NCBI RefSeq assembly: GCF_040954835.1
Contig: NC_090699.1
Span: 14,129,817-14,193,816, forward strand
Source of the DNA: Lepisosteus oculatus
Taxonomy: Eukaryota > Chordata > Actinopteri > Semionotiformes > Lepisosteidae
DNA: 64,000 nucleotides
Direction of reading: 5' to 3'
Part shown: in pieces, positions 2,295-63,100 of the stretch
How the letters are laid out: every line of letters begins with the position of its first letter
How positions within the stretch are numbered: position 1 is the stretch's first letter
The notes under the pieces: generated by a model
The model's database searches: none
What the model was told of the DNA's origin: nothing
The model's input: only the letters and a program-made list of their open reading frames with translations
Program-made: the position numbers and the translations under genes

Positions 2295-5200
2295 ATGGAG
2301 CCGGCCAGGGGCGCAGCGGCGGAGAAGGAGGGACAGAGCCAGAGGAGGAAGGACAGGAAAGGAGGGAAGGGGAAGATGAGGCCGGAGGGCAGAGGGGGAG
2401 ACGGAGGGAAGCCGGAGCGAAGATGGAAACGACTGGACGCCATGAGTGTGGGGTATTTCCGCAGAGTGAGCGCCAGACTGGAGGAGGAGTTCAGCACTGA
2501 GGAGGAGAGAGGTCAGTACATTAACACTGACTGGACACTCCAGTACATTAACACTGCACTGAGAGAGAGGGGTTCATACAGACACACTGACTGACTGGAC
2601 ACTCCAGTACATTAACACTGCACTGAGAGAGAGGGGTTCATACAGACACACTGACTGACTGGACACTCCAGTACATTAACACTGCACTGAGAGAGAGGGG
2701 TTCATACAGACACACTGACTGACTGGACACTCCAGTACATTAACACTGCACTGAGAGAGAGGGGTTCATACAGACACACTGACTGACTGGACACTCCAGT
2801 ACATTAACACTGCACTGAGAAATGTTATTGTTTGTTACAAAGCTCTCTATAACTTTCTTGTCCTCCTATTTCTCTTACCCATCCCTCTCACTCTTGTTCT
2901 CTCTTCCTTCTCCAGACATGTTTGTGGAGAATGTCCTGTCAGAGGTCAGAGGACAGGCCGTCTCTGTGGCCACTGATATCACCGGCAGCGTGGCTCTCCA
3001 GAAGCTCCTCCCCCTGGCTAGCCCCGCCCAGGTGGGCGGCGTCCTCACTGAGCTGGGCGGAGACTCGGGGGCACAGTTCAAGGCTGTGTCATGTGACCGC
3101 TGTGGAGCACATATCGTAGAGACCGCTCTGCGGCAGACACACAGACTGCGAGGTGAGAGGCTGGACGCTGGGAGAGACAGAGACAGATAACCATACAGTT
3201 CAGTACTGACAGAAACAGACAGACTGAGAGTCGCACAGACACGAGAATCAGAATGAGTATTCATAGGTCTGCTCGTGGACAGAGTGACAGGTTAGCGCCA
3301 CATGAAGCACACAATTAATACATAACGCTAAAAATGGTTGTATGTTTCTGCTGACCTGTGGTTTCTCCATGGACAGTGGAGGATCCAGAAGCTACCACAG
3401 AGAACAGGAGTGAGGCAGACGGGCAGGCAGACGGCGAGGAGGATCATGGGATGCTGGAGAAGCAAGTGCTGGCACTGAGTTGCGCAGTGGTGGACAACCT
3501 GCTGGAGTTCGCCCAGGACGCGCACGGCACCTTTGTTGTCCGGAGGCTGGCCGAGACGCTGGGGGGCAGGCTGACGCAGGGCCGACCGGACCGACAGACA
3601 GGTGAGGGGTCAGAGGTCACACTGTGAGCTGAGCCAGTTCGGCTGTTTGTGCGTGACGCTTTGATGCTGCTCAAATATACATGGAGCTTGTCTGCTGCAG
3701 TTGAAGCATTTCTTTCCTTGGGGTATTAGCATAGTCACACATGTCAAATGTACTGCCTGCATTAACTTGACGATGGTCTCTAGCTAAACTCTTGGAGCCT
3801 GAGGACGCTGCTCTCAGGACGACAGTCAGCCGGGTCTCTGATGGTGTTCTCTGGAAACCTACAGGTCGGAAACCTAGAGATTTCAGCACCCAGGTCATCG
3901 ACTTCCAAGTCCCACCGTCATTTGAAGAGGCTCTTGACAGGTTGTCAGACTGCCTGCTGGACAATATCAATGGTGAGGCTGACCACACTCTCTCTCAGTG
4001 CAGTATTATTGTACTGTGGTGTTCTGTCAGTCAGTGTGTCTGTATGAACCCCTCTCTCTCAGTGCAGTGTTAATGTACTGGAGTGTCCAGTCAGTCAGTG
4101 TGTCTGTATGAACCCCTCTCTCTCAGTGCAGTGTTAATGGACTGGAGTGTCCAGTCAGTCAGTGTGTCTGTATGAACCCCTCTCTCTCAGTGCAGTGTTA
4201 ATGGACTGGAGTGTCCAGTCAGTCAGTGTGTCTGTATGAACCCCTCTCTCTCAGTACAGTGTTAATGTACTGGAGTGTCCAGTCAGTCAGTGTGTCTGTA
4301 TGAACCCCTCTCTCTCAGTGCAGTGTTAATGGACTGGAGTGTCCAGTCAGTCAGTGTGTCTGTATGAACCCCTCTCTCTCAGTGCAGTGTTAATGGACTG
4401 GAGTGTCCAGTCAGTCAGTGTGTCTGTATGAACCCCTCTCTCTCAGTGCAGTGTTAATGTACTGGAGTGTCCAGTCAGTCAGTGTGTCTGTATGAACCCC
4501 TCTCTCTCAGTGCAGTGTTAATGTACTGGAGTGTCCAGTCAGTCAGTGTGTCTGTATGAACCCCTCTCTTTGTCTTGTAGTGTTTGTCACTCACTCTCTG
4601 GCCTGTCCGGTGCTCCAGACAGTTCTCACTGTCTCTCAGAAGAAGAGGCCAGAGCTCTGCCAGCGCCTCACAGAGGGCATCATGGGATACTTGGCGTCTC
4701 TCAGCGCTGCCCCTGGGACGAGGTGTGTTCTCCATCTCTCTCCTCCGGAACCGCATCAGTTGGGATGATTATGTCCAGTTCCCATAGTCGAACTGGACAG
4801 ATTGTGTGCCCATATACAGATGTGTCCGGGTCAACACCAGGAAAAATATCTGGATGTTGGATTGAGTGATGTTCTTCATTATGCACTTGTTTGAGCACAG
4901 CAATGGAAGGCCAGTCTTTGTCAGGAATGCTGGGAGAAACCGTGAGGTCCTGATTAAACCCAGGACTGTGTGGACATAGTGAGAACGTAACAGAGTGCTT
5001 ACTGACGCCGAACAAGGGGCAGGCTGTGGCACCGCTGGTGAGAGACGGCACAGCGCCCCCTGCTGGTTGATGCAGCTGGCAGCTCAGAGCAGTACGTCAC
5101 AGCAGCTGTGTTTCTTTTTGTTCATGCATTACATATAGCTATATATATAGATCGATATATCCAGATGAGTTAACATAGCGATATAGAAAGCTGTGCATCG

Positions 5201-8200
5201 TCACACTGGTTTGTGATGTAGCAGCTGAATTGTTCATGAGATTTGTGATGACTTCAGTCAACACTCATGCGCTGATAATTGTCTGATTGACTCTTTCCCA
5301 GCCCCCTCCTGGTCTTCCTGAAGGACCAGACCTCCAGTCGCCTCCTTGAAATGCTCATAGCCGCGTGTGGCAAGCTCTTGCTCCGCGACCTCTACAGAAA
5401 CCACTTCCGGGGTCATTTGGTCTCCCTGGCACTTCACCCAATCGCCAACTTCCCTGTGCAGAGACTGACAGCTGCTGCCGCCAAACACAAGCTGGTATAA
5501 CAGTTTTGTCAGTCAGTGTGTCTGTATGAACCCCTCTCTCTCAGTGCAGTGTTAATGTACTGGAGTGTCCAGTCAGTCAGTGTGTCTGTATGAACCCCTC
5601 TCTCTCAGTGCAGTGTTAATGTACTGGAGTGTCCAGTCAGTGTGTCTGTATGAACCCCTCTCTCTCAGTGCAGTGTTAATGTACTGGAGTGTCCAGTCAG
5701 TGTGTCTGTATGAACCCCTCTCTCTCAGTGCAGTGTTAATGTACTGGAGTGTCCAGTCAGTCAGTGTGTCTGTATGAACCCCTCTCTCTCAGTGCAGTGT
5801 TAATGTACTGGAGTGTCCAGTCAGTCAGTGTGTCTGTATGAACCCCTCTCTCTCAGTGCAGTGTTAATGTACTGGAGTGTCCAGTCAGTGTGTCTGTATT
5901 AACCCCTCTCTTTCTCTCTCTCAGTTCCTGAAGATCTTTGATGAGCTCTCTGAGGGTCTAGAAGCTATCCTGGCGACCGGTCACATGGGTGTGATTGTCC
6001 AGTTAGCAGAGAGCTGCTCTCAGCAGGAGGAGAGACAAGCTCAGTGTACTCAGGCACTCCTGGAGGTAGGTCAGACCCCGACCAGACAGCGAGATGTAGT
6101 ATAATTTATCTTCAGTAGTCACGCTTTCCATTACAATGTGGATGGGACAGTCAAGTAAACTCTGAATTGATAGTAAATCTGAAAAGTCACGATCAGATTT
6201 TGGGCTTTGAACGGCTCGAGCCCCAGTGTCCCAAAGCCAGAGGTTCGAACCCAAGTCAGGCCATGAGCCGACGGCACTGAGCAGTGCCTTGGGGCAGCAC
6301 ACGATCAGACGAGCGCTGTTGGGACTGGGCTGTGGTTCACTAGCTTGAGGGGTTGTGGTGATGTCATCACGAGAAGTGTCTCTTCTCCAGCGGCACTAAA
6401 GCGGTGATGTCATCGGGAGACGCAGGGTTGTGGTGATGTCATCAGGAGACACGAGGTTGTGGTGATGTCATTGGGAGGAGCACCTCTTCTCCAGCGGCAC
6501 TAAAGCGGTGATGTCATCGGGAGACGCGGGGTTGTGGTGATGTCGTTGGGAGAAGCATCTCTTCTCCGGTGGCACTAACAGGCCGCTCATCCGCGACAGG
6601 GACTGGAACTAGAGCGGTCACTCGTGTAGACTTTGACCTCTGACCTCTTCATCAGGTCGCCAGTGGGAGGGGCTACGGCGGGTGGGCTCGTCTGTGGCTC
6701 TGAGGGGCCACAGTGTGATTTAGCCCAACCCTGGCCAGATAAACCCACTTTCTTTACACCTGTGACGCAGAACGATCACCGAGGGTGACGCGCTGCTATG
6801 TCTGGGCGTGAAATCGAAACAGTGCACTCTGGGTAGTCCGTTATCCCGGCCTCCCGCTCCGGGATTTGTGTGCAGCCGGCTCTTTAATCGGACTCTTACT
6901 CCAGGGCATCCTGCGCCACGCCACCCCAGTGTCTGCCGGGAGCAGCCCTCTTGACCACGGATCTGAGCCCCGCCTTTAATGAGTGACTTACTACCAGACA
7001 CCTCTGTAAGGGTTTGGCTGTGGTATTACTGTCAAACTGTTCTCTTTAGAAGAGAACAGCCTTTCCGGTCTCAAGGGAAACAGTTTGAAAAGGCGAATTC
7101 ATGGAATTGTTTACATTGAGAGTTCAATTGAGCACCGGAGAGCCCCTCCGGACTGAACCCCAGCGGATACTGGGGTCACCGGGTGGAGAGCCCCTCCAGA
7201 CTGAACCCCAGCGGATACTGGGGTCACGGGGTGGAGAGCCCCTCCAGACTGAACCCCAGCGGATACTGGGGTCACGGGGTGGAGAGCCCCTCCAGACTGA
7301 ACCCCAGCGGATACTGGGGTCACCGGGTGGAGAGCCCCTCCAGACTGAACCCCAGCGGATACTGGGGTCACCGGGTGGAGAGCCCCTCCAGACTGAACCC
7401 CAGCGGATACTGGGGTCACCGGGTCATGGACTGGAAAATCCCTAGGGAATTCTCTTTCTTCTCTGATGAAGAGGCCGGTTGCATCAAAGACCTGCCCTGC
7501 AATGGGCTGGAGTCTGCGCTGGTGGTCGAGCCCTGCAGCACGCAGCTCCTGACTGACTGCGGTTACACTGTCGTCTCCCCCCCCACCCCAGGCTTTTCAC
7601 TGCTGGGACCCCCCCTCGAGACGAACTTCCTGTGCACCCCTCCTCCTCTCCTTGCTGGCTTATGAAGTGTACTACCACACTGACAGCCCAGGGGGCGACA
7701 CTGAGACATCCCAGGTACAATTTCTCTCACTATCTGTTGAGTCAGTGTGTCTCTCTCTCTCTCTCTCTCTCAGTGCAGTGTTAATGTACTGGAGTGTCCA
7801 GTCAGTCAGTGTGTCTGTATGAACCCCTCTCTCTCAGTGCAGTGTTAATGTACTGGAGTGTCCAGTCAGTCAGTGTGTCTGTATGAACCCCTCTCTCTCA
7901 GTGCAGTGTTAATGTACTGGAGTGTCCAGTCAGTCAGTGTGTCTGTATGAACCCCTCTCTCTCAGTGCAGTGTTAATGTACTGGAGTGTCCAGTCAGTCA
8001 GTGTGTCTGTATGAACCCCTCTCTCAGTGCAGTGTTAATGTACTGGAGTGTCCAGTCAGTGTGTCTGTATGAACCCCTCTCTCTCAGTGCAGTGTTAATG
8101 TACTGGAGTGTCCAGTCAGTCAGTGTGTCTGTATGAACCCCTCTCTCTCAGTGCAGTGTTAATGTACTGGAGTGTCCAGTCAGTCAGTGTGTCTGTATTA

Positions 8201-9797
8201 ACCCTTCTCCATTTCCCTCTCTCTCTCCACAGCGCCCCCTGTCTGAGATCTGCTATCACGGCTCTCTCCTCGTACAGTCGCTGCTCAGGTTCTCCGATTG
8301 CTCCGTTGTCAAGACCAGTCTGAATTCCCTCCCCGCGAGTGACCTCCTGACCCTGGCCACTGACCCCTCGGGGAGCCACGTGCTGGAGGCCCACCTCAGG
8401 TCCCTGAACAAGGGGAAGAACAAATTCCTGAAGAAGCTGCAGGTCAGTGGCGGGTCGTGTTCGGACGGAGAGGCAGGCTGCTGCTGGTCCAGCAGGTGGC
8501 GCTCCTCCCCCCGTCTCTGAACTTGCGGTGCGGTACCTCAGAGTGAACACAAGGGGCGCTGTGCTGCAGGGGGTATTAATCTGGGGTCCTGGTCAAGAGT
8601 GAGGATTAAATGTCTCATAAGAGTAGGGATTTAGTGTTCAGTCTGGTCATTCTCAGACATGACACACCCGTGTGGTGAATGTTTCTAAAGAAATGACTTT
8701 TCTTATTTGTTTGGAGAATCGGTCCCTCCCTGTTTGAAACTGCCAGTTGTTAGTTAGGTTTGCTCTGTGCTATAGCCCCCAGTGCCGCAGGGGAGAGAGT
8801 GTTGAGCTGCGCACTCTGGTCCCTCACACACCCTCCTGCAAGATCTGCTTGTCCTGATTGGAGGAGCGTGGTGTCTCTCACTGCCAAAGTGAGCCCTGAT
8901 TGGAGGAGCAGTGTGGTTCACTGCCAGAGTGAGCCCTGATTGGAGGAGCAGGGTGTCTCTCACTGCCAGAGTGAGCCCTGATTGGAGGAGCAGGGTGTCT
9001 CTCACTGCCAGAGTGAGCCCTGATTGGAGGAGCAGGGTGTCTCTCACTGCCAGAGTGAGCCCTGATTGGAGGAGCAGGGTGTCTCTCACTGCCAGAGTGA
9101 ACCCTGATTGGAGGAGCAGGGTGTCTCTCACTGGTAGCAGTACAGGATTCCTACTGCCCTGGGCAGATACAGGGCAGCTGTACTGTAGAACAAAAAGCCA
9201 AGGAAGGCTTTCAAACCCACAGAATCCCTGGAGCACCTGACCAGTTCTTCCACTCAACCCCAGTGGGCTAGTGCCGAATCTGTCTCCCTCTGTCCACAGT
9301 CTGTGTCATACCCTCTGTGTTCCTCTGTCACAGGGTCACTTGGTCAAGATTGCGTGTTCAAAGCATGGCAGCCGTTTTCTGGAGAGTGTGTGGAATAACA
9401 GCCAGCTCAAACACAAGAGGGAGATTGCACAGGAGCTGGGTGAGTCTCTCTGCAGTGTTAATGTACTGTAGTGTCCAGTCAGTGTGTCTGTATGAACCCC
9501 TCTCTCTCAGTGCAGTGTTAATGTACTGGAGTGTCCAGTCAGTCAGTGTGTCTGTATGAACCCCTCTCTCTCAGTGCAGTGTTAATGTACTGGAGTGTCC
9601 AGTCAGTGTGTCTGTATTAACTCCTCTCTCTATCAGTTCCCAGTGAGGCAGTGCTCCGAGCTGATCAGTTTGGGCGTCATGTCTGTCGAAACTTTGCTCT
9701 GCCTCACTTCCTGAAGAGGCGGAGCCAGTGGGAGGAGCTCCAGGGTGCCCAGTCGAAGAAGAGGAAGATGTTCAGTGATATTCTGGAGGGAGTGTGA
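2295..9797 (+). CDS. nop9: NOP9-like nucleolar Pumilio-repeat protein, 11 coding exons
   Basis: Coding exons: 2295-2511, 2916-3152, 3377-3601, 3865-3972, 4581-4722, 5302-5494, 5925-6065, 7592-7714, 8233-8442, 9334-9439, 9637-9797. They keep one frame and give 620 aa, against about 636 in human. The N-terminus is short, basic and Lys/Arg/Gly-rich, followed by Pumilio-type helical repeats. Diagnostic pieces are LEFAQDAHGTFVVRRLAE, LALHPIANFPVQRL, AFHCW...SCAPLLLSLLAYEVYY, ATDPSGSHVLEAHL and ACSKHGSRFLESVW. It ends with a basic KKRKMFSDILEGV tail. NOP9 family proteins bind pre-rRNA in the nucleolus and act in 18S/small-subunit maturation. The start has a good Kozak context (gacATGG). Exon 8 is only 123 bp behind a C-rich acceptor. 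The exon 4 start is the least certain boundary, chosen to keep phase. Introns 1, 4, 6, 8 and 10 carry the 60/64-bp satellite. Confidence 0.93.
2517..2819 (-). repeat. 60/64-bp satellite array 1 (nop9 intron 1, antisense)
   Basis: About five units, starting directly after the exon 1 donor (gagagaGGTCAGT) at 2511. This is the only one of the 14 arrays whose unit reads antisense to its host gene. Confidence 0.9.
3985..4567 (+). repeat. 60/64-bp satellite array 2 (nop9 intron 4)
   Basis: About nine units, sense to nop9. It fills the intron from just after the donor at 3972 to the polypyrimidine tract of the exon 5 acceptor at 4580. Some units read taatggactgg rather than taatgtactgg, so unit variants are shuffled. 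Confidence 0.95.
5052..5066 (-). promoter_or_regulatory. CTCF-consensus motif in nop9 intron 5
   Basis: The - strand reads CCAGCAGGGGGCGCT, a full match to the vertebrate CTCF core consensus CCASYAGRKGGCRSY. Occupancy cannot be told from sequence. Confidence 0.45.
5508..5922 (+). repeat. 60/64-bp satellite array 3 (nop9 intron 6)
   Basis: About seven units, sense to nop9. It starts within about 12 bases of the exon 6 donor and ends in the acceptor of exon 7: the last unit's pyrimidine tract is the real acceptor tract, extended to tttctctctctcag. Confidence 0.95.
6340..6560 (+). repeat. Imperfect tandem repeat with gatgtcatc words
   Basis: Intron 7 of nop9. Words such as ggttgtggtgatgtcatc and cttctccagcggcactaa recur two to five times at irregular spacing. 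The rest of the intron (6066-7130) shows nothing else I can name. Confidence 0.5.
7131..7425 (+). repeat. 48-bp minisatellite, six copies
   Basis: Units beginning gagagcccctcc and containing ccccagcggatactggggtc repeat six times in nop9 intron 7. The ccccag...ctgggg arms within each unit could form a short hairpin. The unit length is a multiple of three, which explains the long open frames across it. Confidence 0.9.
7735..8213 (+). repeat. 60/64-bp satellite array 4 (nop9 intron 8)
   Basis: About eight units, sense to nop9, beginning about 20 bases after the exon 8 donor (7714) and ending about 20 bases before the exon 9 acceptor (8232). The first unit has an expanded CT tract. Confidence 0.95.
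8489..8503 (+). promoter_or_regulatory. CTCF-consensus motif in nop9 intron 9
   Basis: The + strand reads CCAGCAGGTGGCGCT, matching every position of CCASYAGRKGGCRSY. It lies 47 bases past the exon 9 donor. Confidence 0.4.
8862..9131 (+). repeat. 40/42-bp minisatellite
   Basis: About six and a half units containing gtgtctctcactgccagagt and ccctgattggaggagca in nop9 intron 9. The first units are 40 bp and the later ones 42 bp. Confidence 0.9.
9445..9634 (+). repeat. 60/64-bp satellite array 5 (nop9 intron 10)
   Basis: Three units, sense to nop9, that make up essentially the whole 197-bp intron. The donor GTGAGT runs straight into ctctctgcagtgttaatg of the unit, and the last unit's pyrimidine tract serves as the exon 11 acceptor. 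Confidence 0.95.
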
Positions 9798-9957
9798 GAG
9801 AGAAGAGGAGGAGGAGAGAAGAGAGTGATATTGTGTCCAAACGTCCTTATCTCCACCAATTGTCAGGGTCTAATCAATCTGAGCGATTTGTATTCTTCTC
9901 TAAAACATTTTTGTATGCATCTCTAAAACACTTTATGTACACAAAGTAAAGACCATT

Positions 9958-9963
9958 ATTAAA
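9958..9963 (+). other. Candidate nop9 poly(A) signal
   Basis: ATTAAA, about 160 bases after the nop9 stop codon, in AT-rich DNA following an otherwise unremarkable 3' UTR. Confidence 0.45.
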
Positions 9964-11313: not shown

Positions 11314-14300
11314 TCAGAGGCCGGCGCCGGCCGGCGCGCGGAGCTCGGCGATCCTGGCGTTGAGCTCCGGGTTGGTCCAGTCGCGGCGCAGGTCGTCCAG
11401 GTGGCTGTCGAAGTCCACCAGCAGCGCCTGGGCCCTGTCCGCCCGCAGCTCCTCGGCGACGGCGCGCGTCTGCTCCCAGTGCCGCAGCATGATCCTGGGA
11501 CACACACACACACACACCGGATTCAGGGACTGGCCAGACAGCTGGAGGAGAGAATCCCAGGGCCAGGGGCCCCCAGGGCCCCAGCGTTTCCTCCTTCCAC
11601 TTCCAGCTCAGATTTTTAACGAGCCTCAGCCACCGAACCGGTAACGAAGAGCCTCTCTTAACGGTCTTGACAGGAAACACCGATTCATTGATTAAACCGC
11701 AGCACCATCCATCCGGACAGATCCCACAGCCCTTTGCACACACCCGCGACCACCAGGGGGCGCTCCCTCACGGACGAGGGCAGCACACACTCCAGCCCAT
11801 CATCAGCGGGGGTGACCAGGCGGGCGGAGAGAGAGAGCTCACTCACTGGTGCTTGTCCTTCAGCGTCCAGCGCGCGTCTCTCTTCTCGTAGACCACGATG
11901 GGGGGCGCGCCGTACTCCGCCGACACCTTCGAGTTCTCCACCTGCCGAGCACACAGCGCCACAGCCCGTGAGCGAGCCGCGCACCCCACCCCCTCCCCTC
12001 AGAAGTGTCCCCGGCTGCACAATGAGATTGGTGTTATGCCCCACTCTTCTATAGCACTTTCTGGACACTCTACTCAAAGAGCTTTACAGGTTTTGGGGAT
12101 CCCCTCCTCTACCACCAGTGTGCAGCCCCACCTGGATGATGCTCCAGTCTGCTCACACACCAGCTCTCAGTGGGGAGGAGAGCAGAGTGATGAAGCCAGT
12201 TCAGAGAGGGGGGTTATCAGGAGGCCATGACTGGTAAAGGCCAGGGGGAAATTTGGTTCCCCTTGGTCCTTGGTTTTACGGCTGATTTGAAGGACAGTGC
12301 CTTTTGACAGTAAAGTGTCACTATACTGGGGCATTAGGACCCACACAGACTGCAGGGTGAGCGCCCCCTGCTGGCCCCACTAACACCTCTTCCAGCAGCA
12401 GCCTTAGTTTGTCCCAGGAGTCTCCCATCCAGGTACTGACCAGGCTCACACCTGCTGAGCTCCAGTGGGCTGACAGTGTGAGCTGCAGGGTGATACAGCT
12501 GGCCCTGTCTGTGTGTACGTTCATTTCACCTTCGCTAAACTCCTTCAAATCCAGACTCAAAACCCTCTTCTTCAGAAGAGCCTTTACTGAACTGGTTCAA
12601 TTCTTCACCCCTCTGCTCTTCTTAGTACCACCTTCCACGGTCTCCTCTGTATATTGTAATTGTGTTTTATCTTGTGTATTCTTTTTATTTATTGTTGTTG
12701 TCATCCTGTAAAGCACTTTGAGAAGCCACCTTTAAAGGCGCTATATAAAATACAGTTTATTATTATTTAAAACCAAGAACAGGAGATGCTACTTTACACG
12801 AAGGGTGATAAGAGTGTTTAATGAGCTTCTCGGCCACGCTACTGAAGCCGATGCTCTGGTTTCTCTCCGAGACACTCAGATCAATTGGCTACAATCTACC
12901 AAAGGGATCAGCAAATCACACAACAAAGGCCGAATGAGACAGGACAGGCTAGCTCTCCGCCTCAGAGTGCAAGAGGAGCCCACAGTCTCAAATACAGAAT
13001 GAAACTGGCTCTGGAAAGTCTGGCTCAGAAAACTTACTTTAGTCAATGACCTCAGTAAACTCTGAGGAATTTATTAAAAACAACGGTCAATACCTACAAA
13101 CAGCCAGTACTTGATATCGGGGTGATACTTGGTTTCTTTTGACTGTACGTATTAACTACAGACACAGGACTCCAGTCTGTACACAGTGGTTCTGGGCAGT
13201 GAACTGCAACACTGGACACAGTGAAGGTATACAAGAGTCTCTCACCATCACAAGGACAGCACTGCTATACTGTTCCGCAATCTTATCAGCAATCTTCACA
13301 GCACAAGGGGTAGGACTGAGAGAGAGAGAGGGGTTAATACAGACACACTGACTGGACACTCCAGTACATTAACACTGCACTGAGAGAGAGGGGTTCATAC
13401 AGACACACTGACTGACTGGACACTCCAGTACATTAACACTGCACTGAGAGAGAGGGGTTCATACAGACACACTGACTGACTGGACACTCCAGTACATTAA
13501 CACTACACTGAGAGAGAGGGGTTAATACAGACACACTGACTGGACACAGTGAGACAATGTGCAATTGTGTTTACTATATTTCTTCATTACCTGTTGTCAG
13601 ATACACTCGCGTTGGCCTGGTAGTATCCCACGATTCTCTGCTGATTCTGGGCACACCAAACATCAACCTTAATTACAATTGAAACAAAAAAAATATGTTT
13701 TAATATTAATAACCTCAATAATGGTAATACTCTGATGAAACACCAGGAGTAATCAAGCTCACAGTACACTCAATCTTCTGTCTGTGGTGATCTGAGTGTG
13801 TACATTCGGTAACATAGACATTATTACCAATTCACTCAACACCCCGCGAGAGAAGACTGATTGGGATTTTTTAAATTGACTGCCTGATCTATACTTCACC
13901 CGTGTTGAGGTCTTCATGGTGTACGTTCAGGGTGAGTGTTGAGCCTGGACTGAGGGCTGTCTCAGGATCCGCTCTGTCAGGTGTACCCCCTCAGTAAGCA
14001 CAGGGTCTTGAAGCAGACGCAGTCAGGACTGAGGGAGAGTGAGGTAGAGTCTCCCCCACCTGTGTCTGCAGAGCTAACTGTCCTGCTGAGTGGCTACACA
14101 CAGGGAAGTGAGAACTGAACACTGCAAGAACAGACTGACTGAGCACAGCTCCGCTGCAGTGTGTAGTTACTGGGCACTCACAGCTACTGAAACCAGGGTC
14201 TGAACACAGCTCTGATACAGCGCTCAGTAACTACACACCCCCAGCTACTGAAACCAGGGTCTGAACACAGCTCTGATACAGCGCTCAGTAACTACACACC

Positions 14301-15029: not shown

Positions 15030-15032
15030 CGC

Positions 15033-16525
15033 TGAGAGAGAGACAGAGTCCATGAACACTGCACTGAGAGAGAGGGGTTCATACAGACACACTGACTGGA
15101 CACTCCAGTACATTAACACTGCATTGAGAGAGAGGGGTTCATACAGACACACTGACTGGACACTCCAGTACATTAACACTGCACTGAGAGAGAGGGGTTC
15201 ATACAGACACACTGACTGACTGGACACTCCAGTACATTAACACTGCACTGAGAGAGAGGGGTTCATACAGACACACTGACTGGACACTCCAGTACATTAA
15301 CACTGCACTGAGAGAGAGGGGTTCATACAGACACACTGACTGGACACTCCAGTACATTAACACTGCACTGAGAGAGAGGGGTTCATACAGACACACTGAC
15401 TGACTGGACACTCCAGTACATTAACACTGCACTGAGAGAGAGGGGTTCATACAGACACACTGACTGACTGGACACTCCAGTACATTAACACTGCACTGAG
15501 AGAGAGGGGTTCATACAGACACACTGACTGACTGGACACTCCAGTACATTAACACTGCACTGAGAGAGAGGGGTTCATACAGACACACTGACTGGACACT
15601 CCAGTACATTAACACTGCACTGAGAGAGAGGGGTTCATACAGACACACTGACTGGACACTCCAGTACATTAACACTGCACTGAGAGAGAGGGGTTCATAC
15701 AGACACACTGACTGACTGGACACCCCAGTACATTAACACTGCACTGAGAGAGAGGGGTTCATACAGACACACTGACTGGACACTCCAGTACATTAACACT
15801 GCACTGAGAGAGAGGGGTTCATACAGACACACTGACTGACTGGACACTCCAGTACATTAACACTGCACTGAGAGAGAGGGGTTCATACAGACACACTGAC
15901 TGGACACTCCAGTACATTAACACTGCACTGAGAGAGAGGGGTTCATACAGACACACTGACTGGACACTCCAGTACATTAACACTGCACTGAGAGAGAGGG
16001 GTTCATACAGACACACTGACTGACTGGACACTCCAGTACATTAACACTGCACTGAGAGAGAGGGGTTCATACAGACACACTGACTGACTGGACACTCCAG
16101 TACATTAACACTGCACTGAGAGAGAGGGGTTCATACAGACACACTGACTGACTGGACACTCCAGTACATTAACACTGCACTGAGAGAGAGGGGTTCATAC
16201 AGACACACTGACTGGACACTCCAGTACATTAACACTGCACTGAGAGAGAGGGGTTCATACAGACACACTGACTGGACACTCCAGTACATTAACACTGCAC
16301 TGAGAGAGAGGGGTTCATACAGACACACTGACTGACTGGACACCCCAGTACATTAACACTGCACTGAGAGAGAGGGGTTCATACAGACACACTGACTGGA
16401 CACTCCAGTACATTAACACTGCACTGAGAGAGAGGGGTTCATACAGACACACTGACTGACTGGACACTCCAGTACATTAACACTGCACTGAGAGAGAGGG
16501 GTCAGTACACACACACTGACTGGAC
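15033..16525 (-). repeat. 60/64-bp satellite array 7 (emc9 5' UTR intron)
   Basis: About 24 units, sense to emc9, ending in the acceptor two bases before the start codon. A 620-bp higher-order period is visible: the rare caccccagta variant occurs at 15721 and again at 16341. Confidence 0.95.
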
Positions 16526-16606
16526 TGAAGAGAGTTAAGAAACAACTACAATACACTTCAACAAAAACTACAACATATCATAACAGAATTCAAATATAAT
16601 TCTTAC

Positions 16607-18770: not shown

Positions 18771-18782
18771 CCTGACTGTGAT

Positions 18783-45100: not shown

Positions 45101-48100
45101 GTCAGTGCGGGTGTACTCAGTATGGGAGTCAGTGCGGGTGTACTCAGTCAGTATGGGAGTCAGTGCAGGTGTACTCAGTCAGTAAGGGAGTCAGTGCGGG
45201 TGTACTCAGTCAGTAAGGGAGTCAGTGCGGGTGTACTCAGTCAGTATGGGAGTCAGTGCGGGTGTACTCAGTATGGGAGTCAGTGCGGGTGTACTCAGTC
45301 AGTATGGGAGTCAGTGCATGTGTACTCAGTCAGTAAGGGAGTCAGTGCATGTGTACTCAGTCAGTAAGGGAGTCAGTGTGGGTGTACTCAGTCAGTAAGG
45401 GAGTCAGTGCGGGTGTACTCAGTCAGTAAGGGAGTCAGTGCGGGTGTACTCAGTCAGTAAGGGAGTCAGTGCAGGTGTACTCAGTCAGTAAGGGAGTCAG
45501 TGCGGGTGTACTCAGTCAGTAAGGGAGTCAGTGCGGGTGTACTCAGTCAGTAAGGGAGTCAGTGCAGGTGTACTCAGTCAGTAAGGGAGTCAGTGCAGGT
45601 GTACTCCATCAGTAAGGGAGTCAGTGCAGGTGTACTCAGTCAGTATGGGAGTCAGTGCAGGTGTACTCAGTCAGTAAGGAAGTCAGTGCGGGTGTACTCA
45701 GTCAGTAAGGGAGTCAGTGCGGGTGTACTCAGTCAGTACGGGAGTCAGTGCGGGTGTACTCAGTCAGTACGGGAGTCAGTGCGGGTGTACTCAGTCAGTA
45801 AGGAAGTCAGTGCATGTGTACTCAGTCAGTAAGGGAGTCAGTGCGGGTGTACTCAGTCAGTAAGGGATTCAGTGCGGGTGTACTCAGTCAGTAAGGGAGT
45901 CAGTGCGGGTGTACTCAGTCAGTAAGGGAGTCAGTGTGGGTGTACTCAGTCAGTAAGGGAGTCAGTGCGGGTGTACTCAGTCAGTAAGGGAGTCAGTGCG
46001 GGTGTACTCAGTCAGTATGGGAGTCAGTGCGGGTGTACTCAGTCAGTAAGGGAGTCAGTGCAGGTGTACTCAGTCAGTAAGGGAGTCAGTGCGGGTGTAC
46101 TCAGTCAGTAAGGGAGTCAGTGCGGGTGTACTCAGTCAGTATGGGAGTCAGTGCAGGTGTACTCAGTCAGTAAGGGAGTCAGTGCGGGTGTACTCAGTCA
46201 GTAAGGGAGTCAGTGCGGGTGTACTCAGTCAGTATGGGAGTCAGTGCGGGTGTACTCAGTCAGTAAGGGAGTCAGTGCGGGTGTACTCAGTCAGTAAGGG
46301 AGTCAGTGCGGGTGTACTCAGTCAGTAAGGGAGTCAGTGCAGGTGTACTCAGTCAGTAAGGGAGTCAGTGCAGGTGTACTCCATCAGTAAGGGAGTCAGT
46401 GCAGGTGTACTCAGTCAGTATGGGAGTCAGTGCAGGTGTACTCAGTCAGAAAGGAAGTCAGTGCAGGTGTACTCAGTCAGTAAGGGAGTCAGTGCGGGTG
46501 TACTCAGTCAGTAAGGGAGTCAGTGCGGGTGTACTCAGTCAGTACGGGAGTCAGTGTGGGTGTACTCAGTCAGTACGGGAGTCAGTGCGGGTGTACTCAG
46601 TCAGTAAGGAAGTCAGTGCAGGTGTACTCAGTCAGTAAGGGAGTCAGTGCAGGTGTACTCAGTCAGTAAGGGATTCAGTGCGGGTGTACTCAGTCAGTAA
46701 GGGAGTCAGTGCGGGTGTACTCAGTCAGTAAGGGAGTCAGTGTGGGTGTACTCAGTCAGTAAGGGAGTCAGTGCGGGTGTACTCAGTCAGTAAGGGAGTC
46801 AGTGCAGGTGTACTCAGTCAGTATGGGAGTCAGTGCGGGTGTACTCAGTCAGTATGGGAGTCAGTGCAGGTGTACTCAGTCAGTATGGGAGTCAGTGTGG
46901 GTGTACTCAGTCAGTAAGGGAGTCAGTGCGGGTGTACTCAGTCAGTATGGGAATCAGTGCAGGTGTACTCAGTCAGTATGGGAGTCAGTGTGGGTGTACT
47001 CAGTCAGTAAGGGAGTCAGTGCAGGTGAACTCAGTCAGTAAGGGAATCAGTGCAGGTGTACTCAGTCAGTGTGGGTGTACTCAGTCAGTATGGGAGTCAG
47101 TGCGGGTGTACTCAGTCAGTATGGGAGTCAGTGCGGGTGTACTCAGTCAGTCAGTAAGGGAGTCAGTGCGGGTGTACTCAGTCAGTATGGGAGTCAGTGC
47201 GGGTGTACTCAGTCAGTATGGGAGTCAGTGTGGGTGTACTCAGTCAGTAAGGGAGTCAGTGCAGGTGTACTCAGTCAGTAAGGGAGTCAGTGCAGGTGTA
47301 CTCAGTCAGTATGGGAGTCAGTGCAGGTGTACTCAGTCAGTATGGGAGTCAGTGCAGGTGTACTCAGTCAGTAAGGGAGTCAGTGCAGGTGTACTCAGTC
47401 AGTGTGGGTGTACTCAGTCAGTATGGGAGTCAGTGCAGGTGTACTCAGTCAGTCAGTATGGGAGTCAGTGCGGGTGTACTCAGTCAGTAAGGGAGTCAGT
47501 GCGGGTGTACTCAGTCAGTATGGGAGTCAGTGCGGGTGTACTCAGTCAGTATGGGAGTCAGTGCGGGTGTACTCAGTCAGTAAGGGAGTCAGTGCAGGTG
47601 TACTCAGTCAGTAAGGGATTCAGTGCAGGTGTACTCAGTCAGTATGGGAGTCAGTGCGGGTGTACTCAGTCAGTATGGGAGTCAGTGCAGGTGTACTCAG
47701 TCAGTATGGGAGTCAGTGCAGGTGTACTCAGTCAGTCAGTATGGGAGTCAGTGCGGGTGTACTCAGTCAGTATGGGAGTCAGTGCGGGTGTACTCAGTCA
47801 GTATGGGAGTCAGTGCGGGTGTACTCAGTCAGTAAGGGAGTCAGTGTGGGTGTACTCAGTCAGTATGGGAGTCAGTGCAGGTGTACTCAGTCAGTCAGTA
47901 TGGGAGTCAGTGTGGGTGTACTCAGTCAGTATGGGAGTCAGTAAGGGTGTACTCAGTCAGTAAGGGAGTCAGTGCGGGTGTACTCAGTCAGTATGGGAGT
48001 CAGTGCGGGTGTACTCAGTCAGTAAGGGAGTCAGTGCGGGTGTACTCAGTCAGTAAGGGAGTCAGTGTGGGTGTACTCAGTCAGTAAGGGAGTCAGTAAG

Positions 48101-51100
48101 GGTGTACTCAGTCAGTGTGGGTGTACTCAGTCAGTATGGGAGTCAGTGCAGGTGTACTCAGTCAGTCAGTATGGGAGTCAGTGTGGGTGTACTCAGTCAG
48201 TATGGGAGTCAGTGCGGGTGTACTCAGTCAGTAAGGGAGTCAGTGCGGGTGTACTCAGTCAGTATGGGAGTCAGTGCAGGTATACTCAGTCAGTAAGGGA
48301 GTCAGTGCGGGTGTACTCAGTCAGTAAGGGAGTCAGTGCGGGTGTACTCAGTCAGTAAGGGAGTCAGTGCAGGTGTACTCAGTCAGTAAGGGAGTCAGTG
48401 CGGGTGTACTCAGTCAGTAAGGGAGTCAGTGCGGGTGTACTCAGTCAGTAAGGGAGTCAGTGCAGGTGTACTGTCAGTAAGGGAGTCAGTGCCGGTGTAC
48501 TCAGTCAGTATGGGAGTCAGTGCGGGTGTACTCAGTCAGTAAGGGAGTCAGTGCAGGTGTACTCAGTCAGTAAGGGAGTCAGTGCGGGTGTACTCAGTCA
48601 GTAAGGGAGTCAGTGCGGGTGTACTCAGTCAGTATGGGAGTCAGTGCTGGTGTACTCAGTCAGTGCGGGTGTACTCACATGACTACACCAGAGGAATTTG
48701 GGATCCTTGAGGAGTGCCTGCTCTGTCAGCTTCTTATGGAAGAGCTCGTACACCTCAGAGTCCAGACAGTCTCGCAGCTGTCAACACACAGACACACAGC
48801 AGCTCAGCACAGCCCCACACAACACGTACACAACTGCGTTCACAATTGTAATTTTCCATGTTAAAAACAGAAAATGCATTCGGTAGACCTGCAACCAATT
48901 GAAAGAAGGGCAACTAGCAATTCACGGGCTAAAAGAACAGGTTGAGGAACTGAATCTCTTTAGTCGTAAGCAAGATGACCAGAGGATTGGTTGCAAATGT
49001 ATAAAATACTGAAATATCATTGATACGGTCCCCCCCAGAGGACCACTTCAGTACACATCAAAAACGGAAACTGTGCATTTGGGACCGAGGACAGAAGGTA
49101 CTTGTTTGCACAGAGCGTGGAATACGATACCATGGGGTTCTGAAGGAACAGCTGGCCAAAATCAGTAGGCAGACAGCACGTGTTGTTTCCTTCCTAGAGT
49201 TCCTGTGTTCCTATAAGAGCACCTGTATGTCCAGGGTAGAGAAGTAGCTGTTGAACTGGTCCTGGTTGTTGATGTCTGGCTCTCCACACACTGGGCACAC
49301 CATGTCCCTGATGTGTTTGTCTCTGACTGCAATCGTGAAGTGCTGCTGGAAACAGGCTGAGCACACCGTGCACTGACAGGAGATCAGAGCCTGCATCTGA
49401 AACACCAGGAGAGAGAGAGAGGGGTTCATACACACACTGTACTGACAGATCAGAGCCTGTATCTGAGACACCAGGAGAGAGAATGGTTCATACACACACT
49501 GTACTAACAGATCAGAGCCTGTATCTGAGACACCAGGAGAGAGAGAGGGGTTCAAACACACACTGTACTGACAGGAGATCAGAGCCTGCATCTGAGACAC
49601 CAGGAGAGAGAGAGAGGAGTTCATACACACACTGTACTGACAGGAGGTCACAGCCTGCATCTGAGACACCAGGAGAGAGAGAGAGGAGTTCATACACACA
49701 CTGTACTGACAGGAGGTCACAGCCTGTATCTGAGACAACAGGAGAGAGAGTGGTTCATACACACACTGTACTAACAGATCAGAGCCTGTATCTGAGAAAC
49801 CAGGAGAGAGAGAGGGGTTAGAATCTGTATCGTAGAGGACACAACGGAGATCACTAACCTTGCTCTGAGGGAAGCTGTAAAAACAGATAGGACACTCTTT
49901 GGAGAGGAGGCGTCGGATGAAGTCACGGTCCTGCGACTCGCGGACAGCCTGCACCACGTCTTCCAGGCTGTAAGAGGCACCAGGCTCCAGGAGGAGAGAG
50001 AGAGCCAACTCACAGCGCCCCCAGCTGGGCAGCTCATACACTGCCAGCAACCTCCGCAGCACCCTCTGAAGAGAGATGACAGCACTCACTGACTGACTGG
50101 ACACTCCAGCACATTAACACTGCACTGAGAGAGAGGGGTTCATACAGACACACTGACTGGACACTCCAGTACATTAACACTGCACTGAGAGAGAGGGGTT
50201 CATACAGACACACTGACTGACTGGACACTCCAGCACATTAACACTGCACTGAGAGAGAGGGGTTCATACAGACACACTGACTGACTGGACACTCCAGTAC
50301 ATTAACACTGCACTGAGAGAGAGGGGTTCATACAGACACACTGACTGGACACTCCAGTACATTAACACTGCACTGAGAGAGAGGGGTTCATACAGACACA
50401 CTGACTGGACACTCCAGTACATTAACACTGCACTGAGAGAGAGGGGTTCATACAGACACACTGACTGACTGGACACTCCAGTACATTAACACTGCACTGA
50501 GAGAGAGGGGTTCATACAGACACACTGACTGACTGGACACTCCAGTACATTAACACTGCACTGAGAGATATTGGGTTTCTCTAACCTGTTTGTCTTGGTG
50601 ATGAACGTCAATGTGGGACTCAGGTTGTTCACTCCAGACACGCTGATGAAAGGGTTCCAACAGGGGGCGTTGCAAGAGAGAGAGTGCTCCCCTCACCTCC
50701 CCCCCACTAAGTCGCAGAGCATCGTGACACCCCAACATATCAGTGAACCCCAGAGTCGCAAGCTCCCGTACCTGAAAGAGAAGTTTGAATACAGTCTCTC
50801 AGACTGACTGGACACTCCAGTACATTAACACTGCACTGAGAGAGAGGGGTTCATACAGACACACTGACTGACTGGACACTCCAGTACATTAACACTGCAC
50901 TGAGAGAGAGGGGTTCATACAGTCTCTCAGACTGACTGGACACTCCAGTACATTAACACTGCACTGAGAGAGAGGGGTTCATACAGACACACTGACTGAC
51001 TGGACACTCCAGTACATTAACACTGCACTGAGAGAGAGGGGTTCATACAGACACACTGACTGACTGGACACTCCAGTACATTAACACTGCACTGAGAGAG

Positions 51101-54100
51101 AGGGGTTCATACAGACACACTGACTGACTGGACACTCCAGTACATTAACACTGCACTGAGAGAGAGGGGTTCATACAGACACACTGACTGGACACTCCAG
51201 TACATTAACACTGCACTGAGAGAGAGGGGTTCATACAGACACACTGATTGACTGGACACTCCAGTACATTAACACTGCACTGAGAGAGAGGGGTTCATAC
51301 AGACACACTGACTGACTGGACACTCCAGTACATTAACACTGCACTGAGAGAGAGGGGTTCATACAGACACACTGATTGACTGGACACTCCAGTACATTAA
51401 CACTGCACTGAGAGAGAGGGGTTCATACAGACACACTGACTGACTGGACACTCCAGTACATTAACACTGTACTGAGAGAGAGGGGTTCATACAGACACAC
51501 TGACTGGACACTCCAGTACATTAACACTGCACTGAGAGAGAGGGGTTCATACAGACACACTGACTGACTGGACACTCCAGTACATTAACACTGCACTGAG
51601 AGAGAGGGGCTCATACAGACACACTGATTGACTGGACACTCCAGTACATTAACACTGCACTGAGAGAGAGGGGTTCATACAGACACACTGACTGGACACT
51701 CCAGTACATTAACACTGCACTGAGAGAGAGGGGTTCATACAGACACACTGACTGACTGGACACTCCAGTACATTAACACTGCACTGAGAGAGAGGGGTTC
51801 ATACAGACACACTGACTGACTGGACACTCCAGTACATTAACACTGCACTGAGAGAGAGGGGTTCATACAGACACACTGACTGGACACTCCAGTACATTAA
51901 CACTGCACTGAGAGAGAGGGGTTCATACAGACACACTGACTGACTGGACACTCCAGTACATTAACACTGCACTGAGAGAGAGGGGTTCATACAGACACAC
52001 TGACTGACTGGACACTCCAGTACATTAACACTGCACTGAGAGAGAGGGGTTCATACAGACACACTGACTGGACACTCCAGTACATTAACACTGCACTGAG
52101 AGAGAGGGGTTCATACAGACACACTGACTGACTGGACACTCCAGTACATTAACACTGCACTGAGAGAGAGGGGTTCATACAGACACACTGACTGACTGGA
52201 CACTCCAGTACATTAACACTGCACTGAGAGAGAGGGGTTCATACAGACACACTGACTGGACACTCCAGTACATTAACACTGCACTGAGAGAGAGGGGTTC
52301 ATACAGACACACTGACTGGACACTCCAGTACATTAACACTGCACTGAGAGAGAGGGGTTCATACAGACACACTGACTGACTGGACACTCCAGTACATTAA
52401 CACTGCACTGAGAGAGGGGGGTTCATACAGACACACTGACTGACTGGACACTCCAGTACATTAACACTGCACTGAGAGAGAGGGGTTCATACAGACACAC
52501 TGACTGACTGGACACTCCAGTACATTAACACTGCACTGAGAGAGAGGGGTTCATACAGACACACTGACTGACTGGACACTCCAGTACATTAACACTGCAC
52601 TGAGAGAGAGGGGTTCATACAGACACACTGACTGGACACTCCAGTACATTAACACTGCACTGAGAGAGAGGGGTTCATACAGACACACTGACTGACTGGA
52701 CACTCCAGTACATGAACACTGCGCTGAGAGAGAGGGGTTCTCTCCCTGTAGCCTCACCTTGGCCTGTCTGTCTCTCAGTGCCTGCCTCACTGCCTTCTCC
52801 AGGTCTCCGCCGGCGCTGACCCAGGCCTGCCGGGCCTCCTGGCGGGACAGCCGGGCCCCCCCCAGGCTGCCGCTGGCCATGTCGCACAGCAGGTCCAGCG
52901 CCATGGGCAGCTCCGAGCACAGCCAGCGGCACGGCTCCCGGGTCCCGGAGTAGCTGACCGCGGCGAAGACCTCCTCCGGGCTCACGCCCCGCGCCTCCGC
53001 CTCCTGCCACACAGAGGGGGAGAGGAGAGGGGGGCGTCACCGCGGGGCGGACCTGCTGCTGGCCCCGGGGTCCCAGAGAGAGTCGGGAAGGTGTGGGAGG
53101 GATTGGGGAAGCAGCTGGAGAGAGTCGGGAAGGTGTGGGAGGGATTGGGGAAGCAGCAGGAGAGAGTCGGGAAGGTGTGGGAGGGATTGGGGAAGCAGCA
53201 GGAGAGAGTCGGGAAGGTGTGGGAGGGATTGGGGAAGCAGCAGGAGAGAGTCGGGAAGGTGTGGGAGGGATTGGGGAAGCAGCAGGAGGAGAGAGTCGGG
53301 AAGGTGTGGGAGGGATTGGGGAAGCAGCAGCAGGAGGGAGTCGGGAAGGTGTGGGAGGGATTGGGGAAGCAGCAGCAGGAGGGAGTCGGGAAGGTGTGGG
53401 AGGGATTGGGGAAGCAGCAGGAGAGAGTCGGGAAGGTGTGGGAGGGATTGGGGAAGCAGCAGCAGGAGAGAGTCGGGAAGGTGTGGGAGGGATTGGGGAA
53501 GCAGCAGCAGGAGAGAGTCGGGAAGGTGTGGGAGGGATTGGGGAAGCAGCAGGAGAGAGTCGGGAAGGTGTGGGAGGGATTGGGGAAGCAGCAGCAGGAG
53601 AGAGTCGGGAAGGTGTGGGAGGGATTGGGGAAGCAGCAGCAGGAGAGAGTCGGGAAGGTGTGGGAGGGATTGGGGAAGCAGCAGGAGAGAGTCGGGAAGG
53701 TGTGGGAGGGATTGGGGAAGCAGCAGGAGAGAGTCGGGAAGGTGTGGGAGGGATTGGGGAAGCAGCAGCAGGAGAGAGTCGGGAAGGTGTGGGAGGGATT
53801 GGGGAAGCAGCAGCAGGAGAGAGTCAGGAAGGTGTGGGAGGGATTGGGGAAGCAGCAGCAGGAGAGAGTCGGGAAGGTGTGGGAGGGATTGGGGAAGCAG
53901 CAGGAGAGAGTCGGGAAGGTGTGGGAGGGATTGGGGAAGCAGCAGGAGAGAGTCGGGAAGGTGTGGGAGGGATTGGGGAAGCAGCAGCAGGAGAGAGTCG
54001 GGAAGGTGTGGGAGGGATTGGGGAAGCAGCAGCAGGAGGAGAGAGTCGGGAAGGTGTGGGAGGGATTGGGGAAGCAGCAGGAGGGAGTCGGGAAGGTGTG

Positions 54101-60100: not shown

Positions 60101-63100
60101 GAAGGTGTGGGAGGGATTGGGGAAGCAGCAGGAGAGAGTCGGGAAGGTGTGGGAGGGATTGGGGAAGCAGCAGGAGAGAGTCGGGAAGGTGTGGGAGGGA
60201 TTGGGGAAGCAGCAGGAGAGAGTCGGGAAGGTGTGGGAGGGATTGGGGAAGCAGCAGGAGAGAGTCGGGAAGGTGTGGGAGGGATTGGGGAAGCAGCAGC
60301 AGGAGAGAGTCGGGAAGGTGTGGGAGGGATTGGGGAAGCAGCAGGAGAGAGTCGGGAAGGTGTGGGAGGGATTGGGGAAGCAGCAGGAGAGAGTCGGGAA
60401 GGTGTGGGAGGGATTGGGGAAGCAGCAGCAGGAGAGAGTCAGGAAGGTGTGGGAGGGATTGGGGAAGCAGCAGGAGGGAGTCGGGAAGGTGTGGGAGGGA
60501 TTGGGGAAGCAGCAGCAGGAGAGAGTCGGGAAGGTGTGGGAGGGATTGGGGAAGCAGCAGGAGAGAGTCGGGAAGGTGTGGGAGGGATTGGGGAAGCAGC
60601 AGGAGAGAGTCGGGAAGGTGTGGGAGGGATTGGGGAAGCAGCAGCAGGAGAGAGTCGGGAAGGTGTGGGAGGGATTGGGGAAGCAGCAGGAGAGAGTCGG
60701 GAAGGTGTGGGAGGGATTGGGGAAGCAGCAGGAGAGAGTCGGGAAGGTGTGGGAGGGATTGGGGAAGCAGCAGGAGAGAGTCGGGAAGGTGTGGGAGGGA
60801 TTGGGGAAGCAGCAGGAGAGAGTCGGGAAGGTGTGGGAGGGATTGGGGAAGCAGCAGGAGAGAGTCGGGAAGGTGTGGGAGGGATTGGGGAAGCAGCAGC
60901 AGGAGGGAGTCGGGAAGGTGTGGGAGGGATTGGGGAAGCTCCACACAGACAGCACCTCAGATCTGGAATCGCACCCGGCAGCGCTGTCCACAGCGCCACC
61001 GTGCCATGATCAGCAACACTCAAATCGCACATGCACAAGAGCCTCTAGAACTGCACCCACTCTGATCATCTTGACAAGTTGAAGCCCCTCCTCTTTCATC
61101 TTGTTCTGTCGCGCCCAATCAGCGTCCTCCATCGGCTTGGGGAGGGGCGTGGGCGGGACCTTGGGGGGCGTGGCCACCACAGGGCCATCCAGCAGGGCTG
61201 GAGACGGTTGTGGGCAGGGCAGGGAGACGTGGGGGGTGGGGTCATAGCGGCTGAGGTTGCAGACTTCGCACACGCTGCTGGTCATGGTGTTCGCAAAGGT
61301 GCAGTACTGGCACTCCCACTGAGGGAAAGAGAGAGAGAGGTCAGAGTACAGGACAGCACACACAGCCCTGAGCTCTGCTGGGACGGAGTGAAACACACAC
61401 ACACAGCCCTGAGCTCTGCTGTGAGCCAGAGAAACACACACACACACACAGCCCTGAGCTCTGCTGTGAGCCAGAGAAACACACACACACAGCCCTGAGC
61501 TCTGCTGTGAGCCAGTGAAACACACACACACACACACAGCCCTGAGCTCTGCTGTGAGCCAGTGAAACACACACACAGCCCTAAGCTCTGCTGTGACCCA
61601 GCAGTGAAACACACACAGACACAGCCTGAGCTCTGCTGTGAGCCAGTGAAACACACACAGACACAGCCCTGAGCTCTGCTGTGACCCAGTGAAACACACA
61701 CACACACAGCCCTGAGCTCTGCTGTGACGTAGTGAAACACACACACACACAGCCCTGAGCTCTGCTGTGACGTAGTGAAACACACACACACACAGCCCTT
61801 AGTTTACAATGAAGACTAACGCTAGACTGTGAGTCAATCCCTATGCCTCAGTACCTGTAGCTGGGAAGCTGCAGCCACAGGAGGGATCTGGGCTTGGGCT
61901 GAGGTCACCGGTGGACGGGACGCAAGGCGGGGACGCTCACACACCTCACACAGCACACTGCTGCTGGGATTGACCATGGTACAGCTCTGACACTGCCACT
62001 GAGACACTGAGAGAGAGAGGGGTTCATACAGACACACTGACTGGACACTCCAGTACATTAACACTGCACTGAGAGAGAGGGGTTCATACAGACACACTGA
62101 CTGACTGGACACTCCAGTACATTAACACTGCACTGAGAGAGAGGGGTTCATACAGACACACTGACTGGACACTCCAGTACATTAACACTGCACTGAGAGA
62201 GAGGGGTTCATACAGACATACTGACTGACTGGACACTCCAGTACATTAACACTGCACTGAGAGAGAGGGGTTAATACAGACACACTGACCTGAGACCTGG
62301 GAAGCCTGCAGTACATCATCTCTGCCAGCAGGAGGGGCAGTCCGAGGCCTCTCACAGCTCACACACAGCACGGCTAGGCTCTCGTTCCGACAGGTACAGG
62401 AGACACAGGTCCAGGGCGCGGAGGGGGAGCGCACAGACAGAGACTGCGGGGGGCTGGGAGAGAGAGAGGGGTCAATACAGACACTGCGGGTGAATGAGGC
62501 TGCCTTTCCTGCCCCAGGGGCAAAGATCCAGAATGGGAACCAGGTGTATGTGCATTTACAACCGAGATCAGCAGGTGTTCCTGTACGCAAAGAGTGGTGG
62601 GGGTGGGGAACAAGCTGCCCAGCCACGTTGTTGAAGCCGATACCCAGACTTCTCTCCAGACACAGCTGGGTGAGACCCTCCAGTCAGGACAGGAGGCTCC
62701 TCTTTACACAGAGGGGGGTGGGGGTGGGGAACAAGCTGCCCAGCCACGTTGTTGAAGCCGATACCCAGACTTCTCTCAGGACACAGCTGGGTGAGATCCT
62801 CCAGTCAGGACAGGAGGATCGCCTTTACACAGAGGGAGGTGGGGGTGTGGAACAAGCTGCCCAGCCATGTTGTTGAAGCCGATATCCTGGCTTCTCTCCA
62901 GACACAGCTGGGTGAGACCCTCCAGTCAGGACAGAAGGCTCTTCTTTACACAGAAGAATTAACCCGAAGGGGGAAACGACCCGTCTTCTCCCCCAGAAGC
63001 CCCCCGGACCGCGCAGAGTGTGCACAGCGGAGCAGGGGCGGGTGGGTGTGGGACCCTGGCACGGTCTCGCGGGGTCCAGCCCACCCTGTCCCAGCTCACA

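Follow-up and report, generated by a model that had tools for sequence, protein, structure and literature searches.

We analyzed a 64-kb stretch of the Lepisosteus oculatus genome (C4:14129817–14193816, hereafter the window) in which tandem arrays of one satellite with a 60/64-bp unit lie in introns of four genes, nop9 on the + strand and emc9, irf9, and rnf31 on the − strand. We built the gene models by visual reading of the sequence and tested them by translation. The spliced models (nop9, 11 exons; emc9, five coding exons; irf9, eight coding exons; rnf31, 17 exons of its 3′ part) closed as open reading frames and matched the expected Pfam families (PUF_NOP9, 9e-79; UPF0172, 7e-63; IRF, 4e-41; UBA_HOIP, 5e-52), with exon numbers that we take to be near those of the human genes. 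Tandem Repeats Finder identified 15 blocks of the unit, two of which are one array split by a long interspersed nuclear element (LINE), giving 14 arrays in all: five in nop9, two in emc9, two in irf9, and five in rnf31. Twelve of the 37 coding introns hold an array, and the two further arrays, directly upstream of the ATG exons of emc9 and irf9, probably occupy introns of the 5′ untranslated region (5′UTR) behind predicted first exons. Thirteen of the 14 arrays are in host-sense orientation, the exception being the reversed array of nop9 intron 1 (sign test, p 0.002). The original prediction, made from the letters of the window, had given the same count, distribution, and strands, all of which were borne out. 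It had also pointed to the lack of intergenic arrays; this is true in the window yet uninformative because ~84% of the window is genic by our own models (0 of 14 arrays outside genes, p ~0.09), and we discarded it as evidence.

In nop9, the antisense array (2526–2820, −) lies in intron 1 (2512–2915), where a distinct 3′ end of 95 nt belonging to the intron itself remains, and the four sense arrays (+) occupy intron 4 (3973–4580; array 3988–4569, 96% of the intron), intron 6 (5495–5924; array 5508–5911, 94%), intron 8 (7715–8232; array 7763–8209, 86%), and intron 10 (9440–9636; array 9451–9631, 92%). All remaining arrays are on the − strand, in sense to their hosts. Those of emc9 lie in coding intron 2 (13316–13590; array 13322–13542, 80%), an intron common to its paralogue EMC8, and in the intron before the ATG exon (15047–16527), a probable 5′UTR intron whose donor was placed by eye; the ~80 nt ahead of the latter array alone read as a donor-to-acceptor mini-intron. 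The irf9 arrays lie in its last intron (20819–21269; array 20837–21242, 90%), common to two other IRF genes, and directly before the ATG exon (26968–27717) in a putative 5′UTR intron whose exon 1 was not located. The rnf31 arrays are found in introns 31758–32341 (31764–32290, 90%), 32970–40226 (the LINE-split array, with its 3′ part at 32976–34116 and its 5′ part at 39853–40191), 50066–50585 (50079–50568), 50772–52757 (50802–52740), and 62007–62289 (62011–62289, 99%); the last of these arrays also supplies the GTCAGT donor in the model used. A lone 3′ module of the unit (GCAGTGTCTGTATTGACCCCTCTCTCTCTCCCAG; 62454–62487, −), read directly, stands at the 3′ end of another rnf31 intron, one that has no 60/64-bp array. 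Across the 12 sense introns with both ends placed (the one before the emc9 ATG by eye), the arrays account for 80–99% of the intron and leave 4–93 nt of other sequence; the 25 coding introns without a 60/64-bp array measure 153–8057 nt, and several of them hold other minisatellites.

The unit (56–65 bp, head-to-tail) carries a 3′-splice-site module made up of a branch-site heptamer, TATTAAC or TATGAAC, the tract CCCCTCTCTCTC, and AG, and the arrays, being head-to-tail repeats of a 10–100-bp unit in introns, are intronic minisatellites. The original prediction placed a tract in every unit, which is slightly overstated: most units carry it, and its exact form CCCCTCTCTCTCAG occurs 137 times among ~148 units of the window. 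The distance from the last branch-site heptamer to the intron end is 16–31 nt in 10 of the 13 sense arrays (measured from the branch-site A, and for irf9 counted to the ATG, so that four bases past the AG are included), and the heptamer is followed by the CT tract, AG, and the exon. This register at the acceptor had a probability of ~3e-4 under random phase, a null that we chose ourselves; at the 5′ starts of arrays near the donor, the register varies. Branch site, pyrimidine tract, and AG at the array end show, at the sequence level, the layout and usual spacing of a U2-type 3′ splice site. Because the branch motif and tract of the last unit lead into the real acceptor in these 10 arrays, the unit has the appearance of a portable 3′ splice site. 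Direct reading showed no adjacent-exon sequence within the units. The earlier observation that arrays begin or end near splice sites was confirmed, and the effect was stronger than had been stated.

In the yUnAy branch site, a U stands two bases upstream of the branch A; the heptamer TATGAAC has G there instead. Within the window, T was found at this position in 7 of 13 last units and 4 of 131 other units (Fisher p 2e-6), and in 2 of 13 first units. G-rich arrays were those of the window and of locus L085 (C4:15.9 Mb), and the sampled arrays of C1, C3, and C6 were mostly T. The idea of a dead branch site in inner units everywhere was dropped, the pattern being regional, with inner units elsewhere often T. 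The retention of T in terminal units is suggestive only.

In the whole genome (1.2 Gb), CCCCTCTCTCTCAG was found at 9,504 places vs 56 for its reversed control, and the exact 22-bp 3′ module was found as 4,007 TATTAAC and 9,159 TATGAAC 22-mers, together more than 13,000, with 0 for the reversed control. A search for the unit in viral contigs returned no matches. Loci were sampled from the matches listed, namely the first ~100 places in contig order. Sample 1, which was not chosen by array ends, comprised the arrays of C1, C2, and C3 up to 9.4 Mb and all arrays with a rare internal variant (24 places in 17 arrays; C3:10783276 belongs to L065 and was counted in sample 2), leaving out single 14-mer matches without a family unit or within other repeats (L039, L040, L043–L047, L049, L051, and L053). 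Among its 27 loci, 17 arrays were sense to the adjacent exon (L041, L042, L052, L054–L058, L079–L082, L084, L086, L090, L094, and L102), one was antisense by reading frame only (L050), and nine were undecided (L048, L083, L085, L087, L088, L089, L091, L092, and L093); the sign test for 17 of 18 decidable loci gave p 1.4e-4, with neighboring loci not fully independent. The units of L050, L054, and L102 are diverged.

Fourteen of the 17 sense arrays reach an AG followed by an open frame, and 12 of the 17 exons matched Pfam or PDB at E<0.01 (L041, L054, L055, L057, L058, L079, L080, L081, L082, L084, L086, and L102), those of L055 (0.0049) and L080 (0.0045, under the curated cut-off) weakly. The sense call of L042, L052, L056, L090, and L094 rests on reading frames, and Pfam matches of the L090 exon to transmembrane segments only were not counted. 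At L102, the exons before and after the array correspond to adjoining stretches of CERK_C (88–136, 1.8e-8, and 137–168, 0.036, the latter weak), which places the array between two successive exons of a single gene. Sample 2 (L059–L078) was picked by the acceptor-like pattern (707 places) and is thus biased toward arrays with acceptor ends; 17 of its 20 loci were sense and three undecided, with database support for 10 (L062–L065, L067–L069, L071, L075, and L078; weak for L075, 0.0096). No Pfam match was obtained for the exons of L042, L052, L055, L056, L058, L066, L067, L070, L077, L078, L082, L086, and L094 or for the antisense L050 exon; PDB matched those of L055, L058, L067, L078, L082, and L086, and a PDB search of the two short exons L052 and L094 gave 0 matches. 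The same unit thus occurs in unrelated genes, namely the four genes of the window and those at arrays sampled on seven contigs, exon-adjacent on six. The strand and position bias proved real and extends beyond the window (17:1 among the decidable loci of sample 1), and the outcome that the original prediction had named as refuting it was therefore not obtained. Confinement of the copies to genes was not established, as nine of the 27 loci showed no recognizable exon within the fetched flank.

Sequence variants of the unit are distributed regionally, as indicated by a comparison in which each of 45 arrays (15 blocks of the window and 30 fetched loci, short arrays being left out) was represented by its most common units. 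The unit measures 60/64 bp with TATGAAC at C4:14–16 Mb, mostly 62 bp at C4:1.3–2.3 Mb, 56/58 bp at C3:9.3–10.9 Mb, and 65 bp with CTGGACTG on C6. Array pairs less than 300 kb apart (n = 131, of which 105 lie inside the window) had a mean unit identity of 0.962; the mean was 0.888 for more distant pairs on one contig (n = 187) and 0.872 for pairs on different contigs (n = 672). For the 30 arrays outside the window, pairs closer than 1.5 Mb (n = 53) exceeded the rest by 0.058, a difference reached in 0 of 2000 permutations. Arrays in neighboring genes share unit variants, which is most simply read as short-range copying between such genes; alternatively, older copies may have undergone regional gene conversion. 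The convergent genes nop9 (+) and emc9 (−) carry one dialect, in sense in both, and regional strand alone therefore cannot set the orientation here.

The explanation that we favor, with slightly better than even confidence, is tandem growth of a 3′-splice-site module that spread between nearby introns by acceptor homology, its orientation being fixed by the splice signals. Entry of a unit into a short intron would rely on homology to the pyrimidine tract and AG found there, with a nearby array as the source for gene conversion or for template switching during replication, and this homology would set the orientation of the incoming unit; we infer that host splice signals can in this way determine array orientation. 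Tandem expansion would follow, and then loss of unique intron sequence, which would be tolerated because any unit can replace the original acceptor. A bolder proposal, which we advance only tentatively, is that the unit is a self-spreading portable acceptor that moves between neighboring genes via 3′-splice-site homology, replaces the host acceptor, and takes over old introns harmlessly; under this proposal, the TATGAAC of inner units in this region is a disabled branch site, and the intact TATTAAC persists in the terminal unit of 7 of 13 arrays, as though decoys had been switched off and the functional copy retained.

Several observations weigh against these proposals. Three of the 13 sense arrays (15047, 50079, and 50802) end in another register, 46–78 nt from the intron end, and some of the 10 in-register arrays (3988, 7763, and 20837) no longer match the unit over the last bases of the tract. 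The roles of the last unit as the acceptor used in splicing and of the inner units as decoys are predicted from sequence. The T/G pattern is clear only in the region of the window, inner units elsewhere often having T; the T difference between last and first units of the 10 phase-locked arrays gave p 0.07, and the pattern is no more than suggestive because edge units escape homogenization. The copying step is deduced from shared variants alone. The Pfam support for exons comes from sense-strand translations. Nine loci lack a recognizable exon within the fetched flank, one of them (L089) having arrays in both orientations, so that some arrays may lie outside genes or deep in introns. Finally, the 37 clusters at C4:1167490–2001341, among 143 places listed there, are all on the + strand, which gene sense alone does not obviously explain; the same stretch contains one − array at 1742367 and, by eye, a − strand C2H2 zinc-finger reading frame near C4:1459000 (L101). 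The T-box family, tried as a strand marker for C4:1.2–2.0 Mb, had its nearest match at 2.76 Mb.

The original prediction had likened the arrays to introner-like elements, each array intron being made by insertion of a mobile intron. Introners are repeated, lie in genes, and in some cases carry a 3′ splice site themselves (PMC9860276; this and the other papers cited here are represented by excerpts), and the sense and gene bias of our arrays agrees with this comparison. So does rnf31 intron 62007–62289, which is array from the GTCAGT donor to the unit acceptor with GTCTCAG on both sides; this is one candidate target site duplication, at 62011, the only site surveyed. By our reading, however, removal of that array together with one GTCTCAG would break the reading frame. 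Both array introns compared with paralogues are older than their arrays, because the same introns are present in the paralogues: emc9 intron 13316–13590 is matched in EMC8 (L095) by an intron of identical position and phase, 89 nt long and without an array, and the last irf9 intron (LITVQ|V) is matched in IRF8 and IRF4 (L096 and L097), these three gene names being our reading of similarity and neighborhood. Introners create introns (PMC9860276), whereas the window family is tandem and, where this could be judged, has colonized old introns. The comparison with introners thus held for the bias and failed for intron creation; we rejected an introner origin on the paralogue introns and regard it as very improbable. 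Dispersal of an ordinary minisatellite at random, perhaps borne by a transposon, with copies then surviving selectively where introns tolerated their orientation and place, would accommodate the nine of 27 loci away from recognizable exons and the antisense copies in nop9 intron 1 and at L050. Neutral intergenic copies should then dominate, yet 18 of the 27 unselected loci adjoin exons. Moreover, human intronic retroviral elements survive with an antisense bias (PMC1794541), and survival alone would be expected to favor the antisense orientation for elements with splice signals, opposite to the arrays here. No common carrier was seen when 71 flanks, taken from 38 arrays, were compared. We read the 21 cross matches of this comparison, without checking each, as array remnants, shared neighboring sequence, short matches, one other minisatellite, and one repeat common to two C21 loci; the flanks of L086 and 62011 share an unexplained 51-bp match. 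A common transposon carrier was rejected on this comparison, and random dispersal as a whole appears unlikely.

Independent local tandem duplication of the 3′ end of each intron, with the likeness among arrays arising from the shared splice consensus, does have precedents in the window: two arrays (49372–49819 and 63407–64000) have units that include the first bases of the next exon. For the 60/64-bp family, this account is already contradicted by the identity of the unit across genes, since exon-adjacent arrays on six contigs are alike over the full unit, including ~40 nt outside the branch site, tract, and AG; local duplication could explain the first seed only, and its chance of accounting for the arrays is very slight. 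Spread driven by the LINE is suggested by two insertions of one LINE family into the same tract in the same orientation, in the window and at L056. The LINE looks like a passenger, however, because it sits inside existing units, and it was seen in none of the other arrays read, no sequence search for it having been made; we consider a driving role exceedingly improbable.

The nearest known kinds of structure are mirages and avian stuttering, both described as local. Mirages of amphioxus are minisatellites at intron–exon boundaries in which splice sites are repeated many times (PMC3087553), as in the window family. Regular splicing is reported to be undisturbed by them, and the edges of their clusters escape homogenization (PMC3087553), as do those of our arrays. 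According to the same excerpts, mirages are locus-specific and include exon sequence, whereas the window family has one unit in many genes, regional dialects, and no adjacent-exon sequence. Units spanning the intron–exon boundary of their own gene, the hallmark of mirages and exon stuttering, are found here in the 49372 and 63407 arrays instead of the 60/64-bp family. In sequence stuttering of genes on avian dot chromosomes, repeats some tens to hundreds of bases long likewise fill introns, and some of them copy a splice site plus exon edge (PMC12954441). Its origin is described as local, and its authors found none in other vertebrates except gerbils; the excerpts (PMC12954441) describe no dispersed, sense-oriented unit like that of the window family, and it is again the 49372 and 63407 arrays that fit. 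CeRep25B of C. elegans is also a single minisatellite family, with 75% of copies in introns, clustered on parts of chromosomes and tied to splicing regulation; it is a 24-bp near-palindrome, and the excerpts report neither acceptor anchoring nor sense-only placement (PMC4039745). Within the searches made, the literature gave no account of a dispersed, sense-oriented, acceptor-anchored satellite in fish.

If our explanation is correct, the arrays would exemplify an invasion in which existing introns are lengthened and refitted instead of new ones being created, and in which splicing signals determine the orientation. Up to ~30 tandem acceptor-like units before one exon would provide a natural test of how the spliceosome chooses a 3′ splice site, and the regional dialects would allow the copying route between genes to be traced.

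The LINE of the window (34117–39852, ends approximate, −) lies in the CT tract of one unit and has open reading frames of 1341 and 535 aa with Exo_endo_phos, RVT_1, and a CCHC knuckle; a second copy of the same family and orientation lies in the CT tract at L056 (~2190–7910). Target-specific (TC)n LINEs, such as Kibi and Koshi, are known, and we presume that this family may be a (TC)n-targeting LINE of Tx1 type; the likeness, an insertion in a CT tract at two loci, concerns the passenger and not the satellite.

Tandem arrays of many unrelated units cover ~33 kb of the window. The 69-bp unit at 49372–49819 joins an intron 3′ end to a near copy of the start of the next rnf31 exon (ATGCAGGCTCTGATCTC), and this array thus has the structure of a mirage or of exon stuttering, here in a genome that is not avian. 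At 63407–64000, a 73–92-bp unit combines an intron 3′ end with an rnf31 exon start, repeats CTCTCCCCAGTGGAGAACTGCACGCTGTGTG, and runs off the window. A 6.3-kb array of a 31-bp unit (42384–48677) starts at the rnf31 donor at 48678, and its units contain CTGAGTACACC, which resembles the donor GTGAGTACACC; it is a possible 5′-splice-site counterpart. Outside the window, L041 (2567–6006) contains a ~896-bp higher-order repeat in which satellite units and an inserted AT-rich dispersed repeat are co-amplified. Other repeats with acceptor-like units occur at L053 (GCGCCTGATGCCCCTCTCTCTCACA) and L039 (GTGTCCCAGCGCCCCGTCTCTCTCTCA), and further families of acceptor-like repeats may therefore exist besides the 60/64-bp one.

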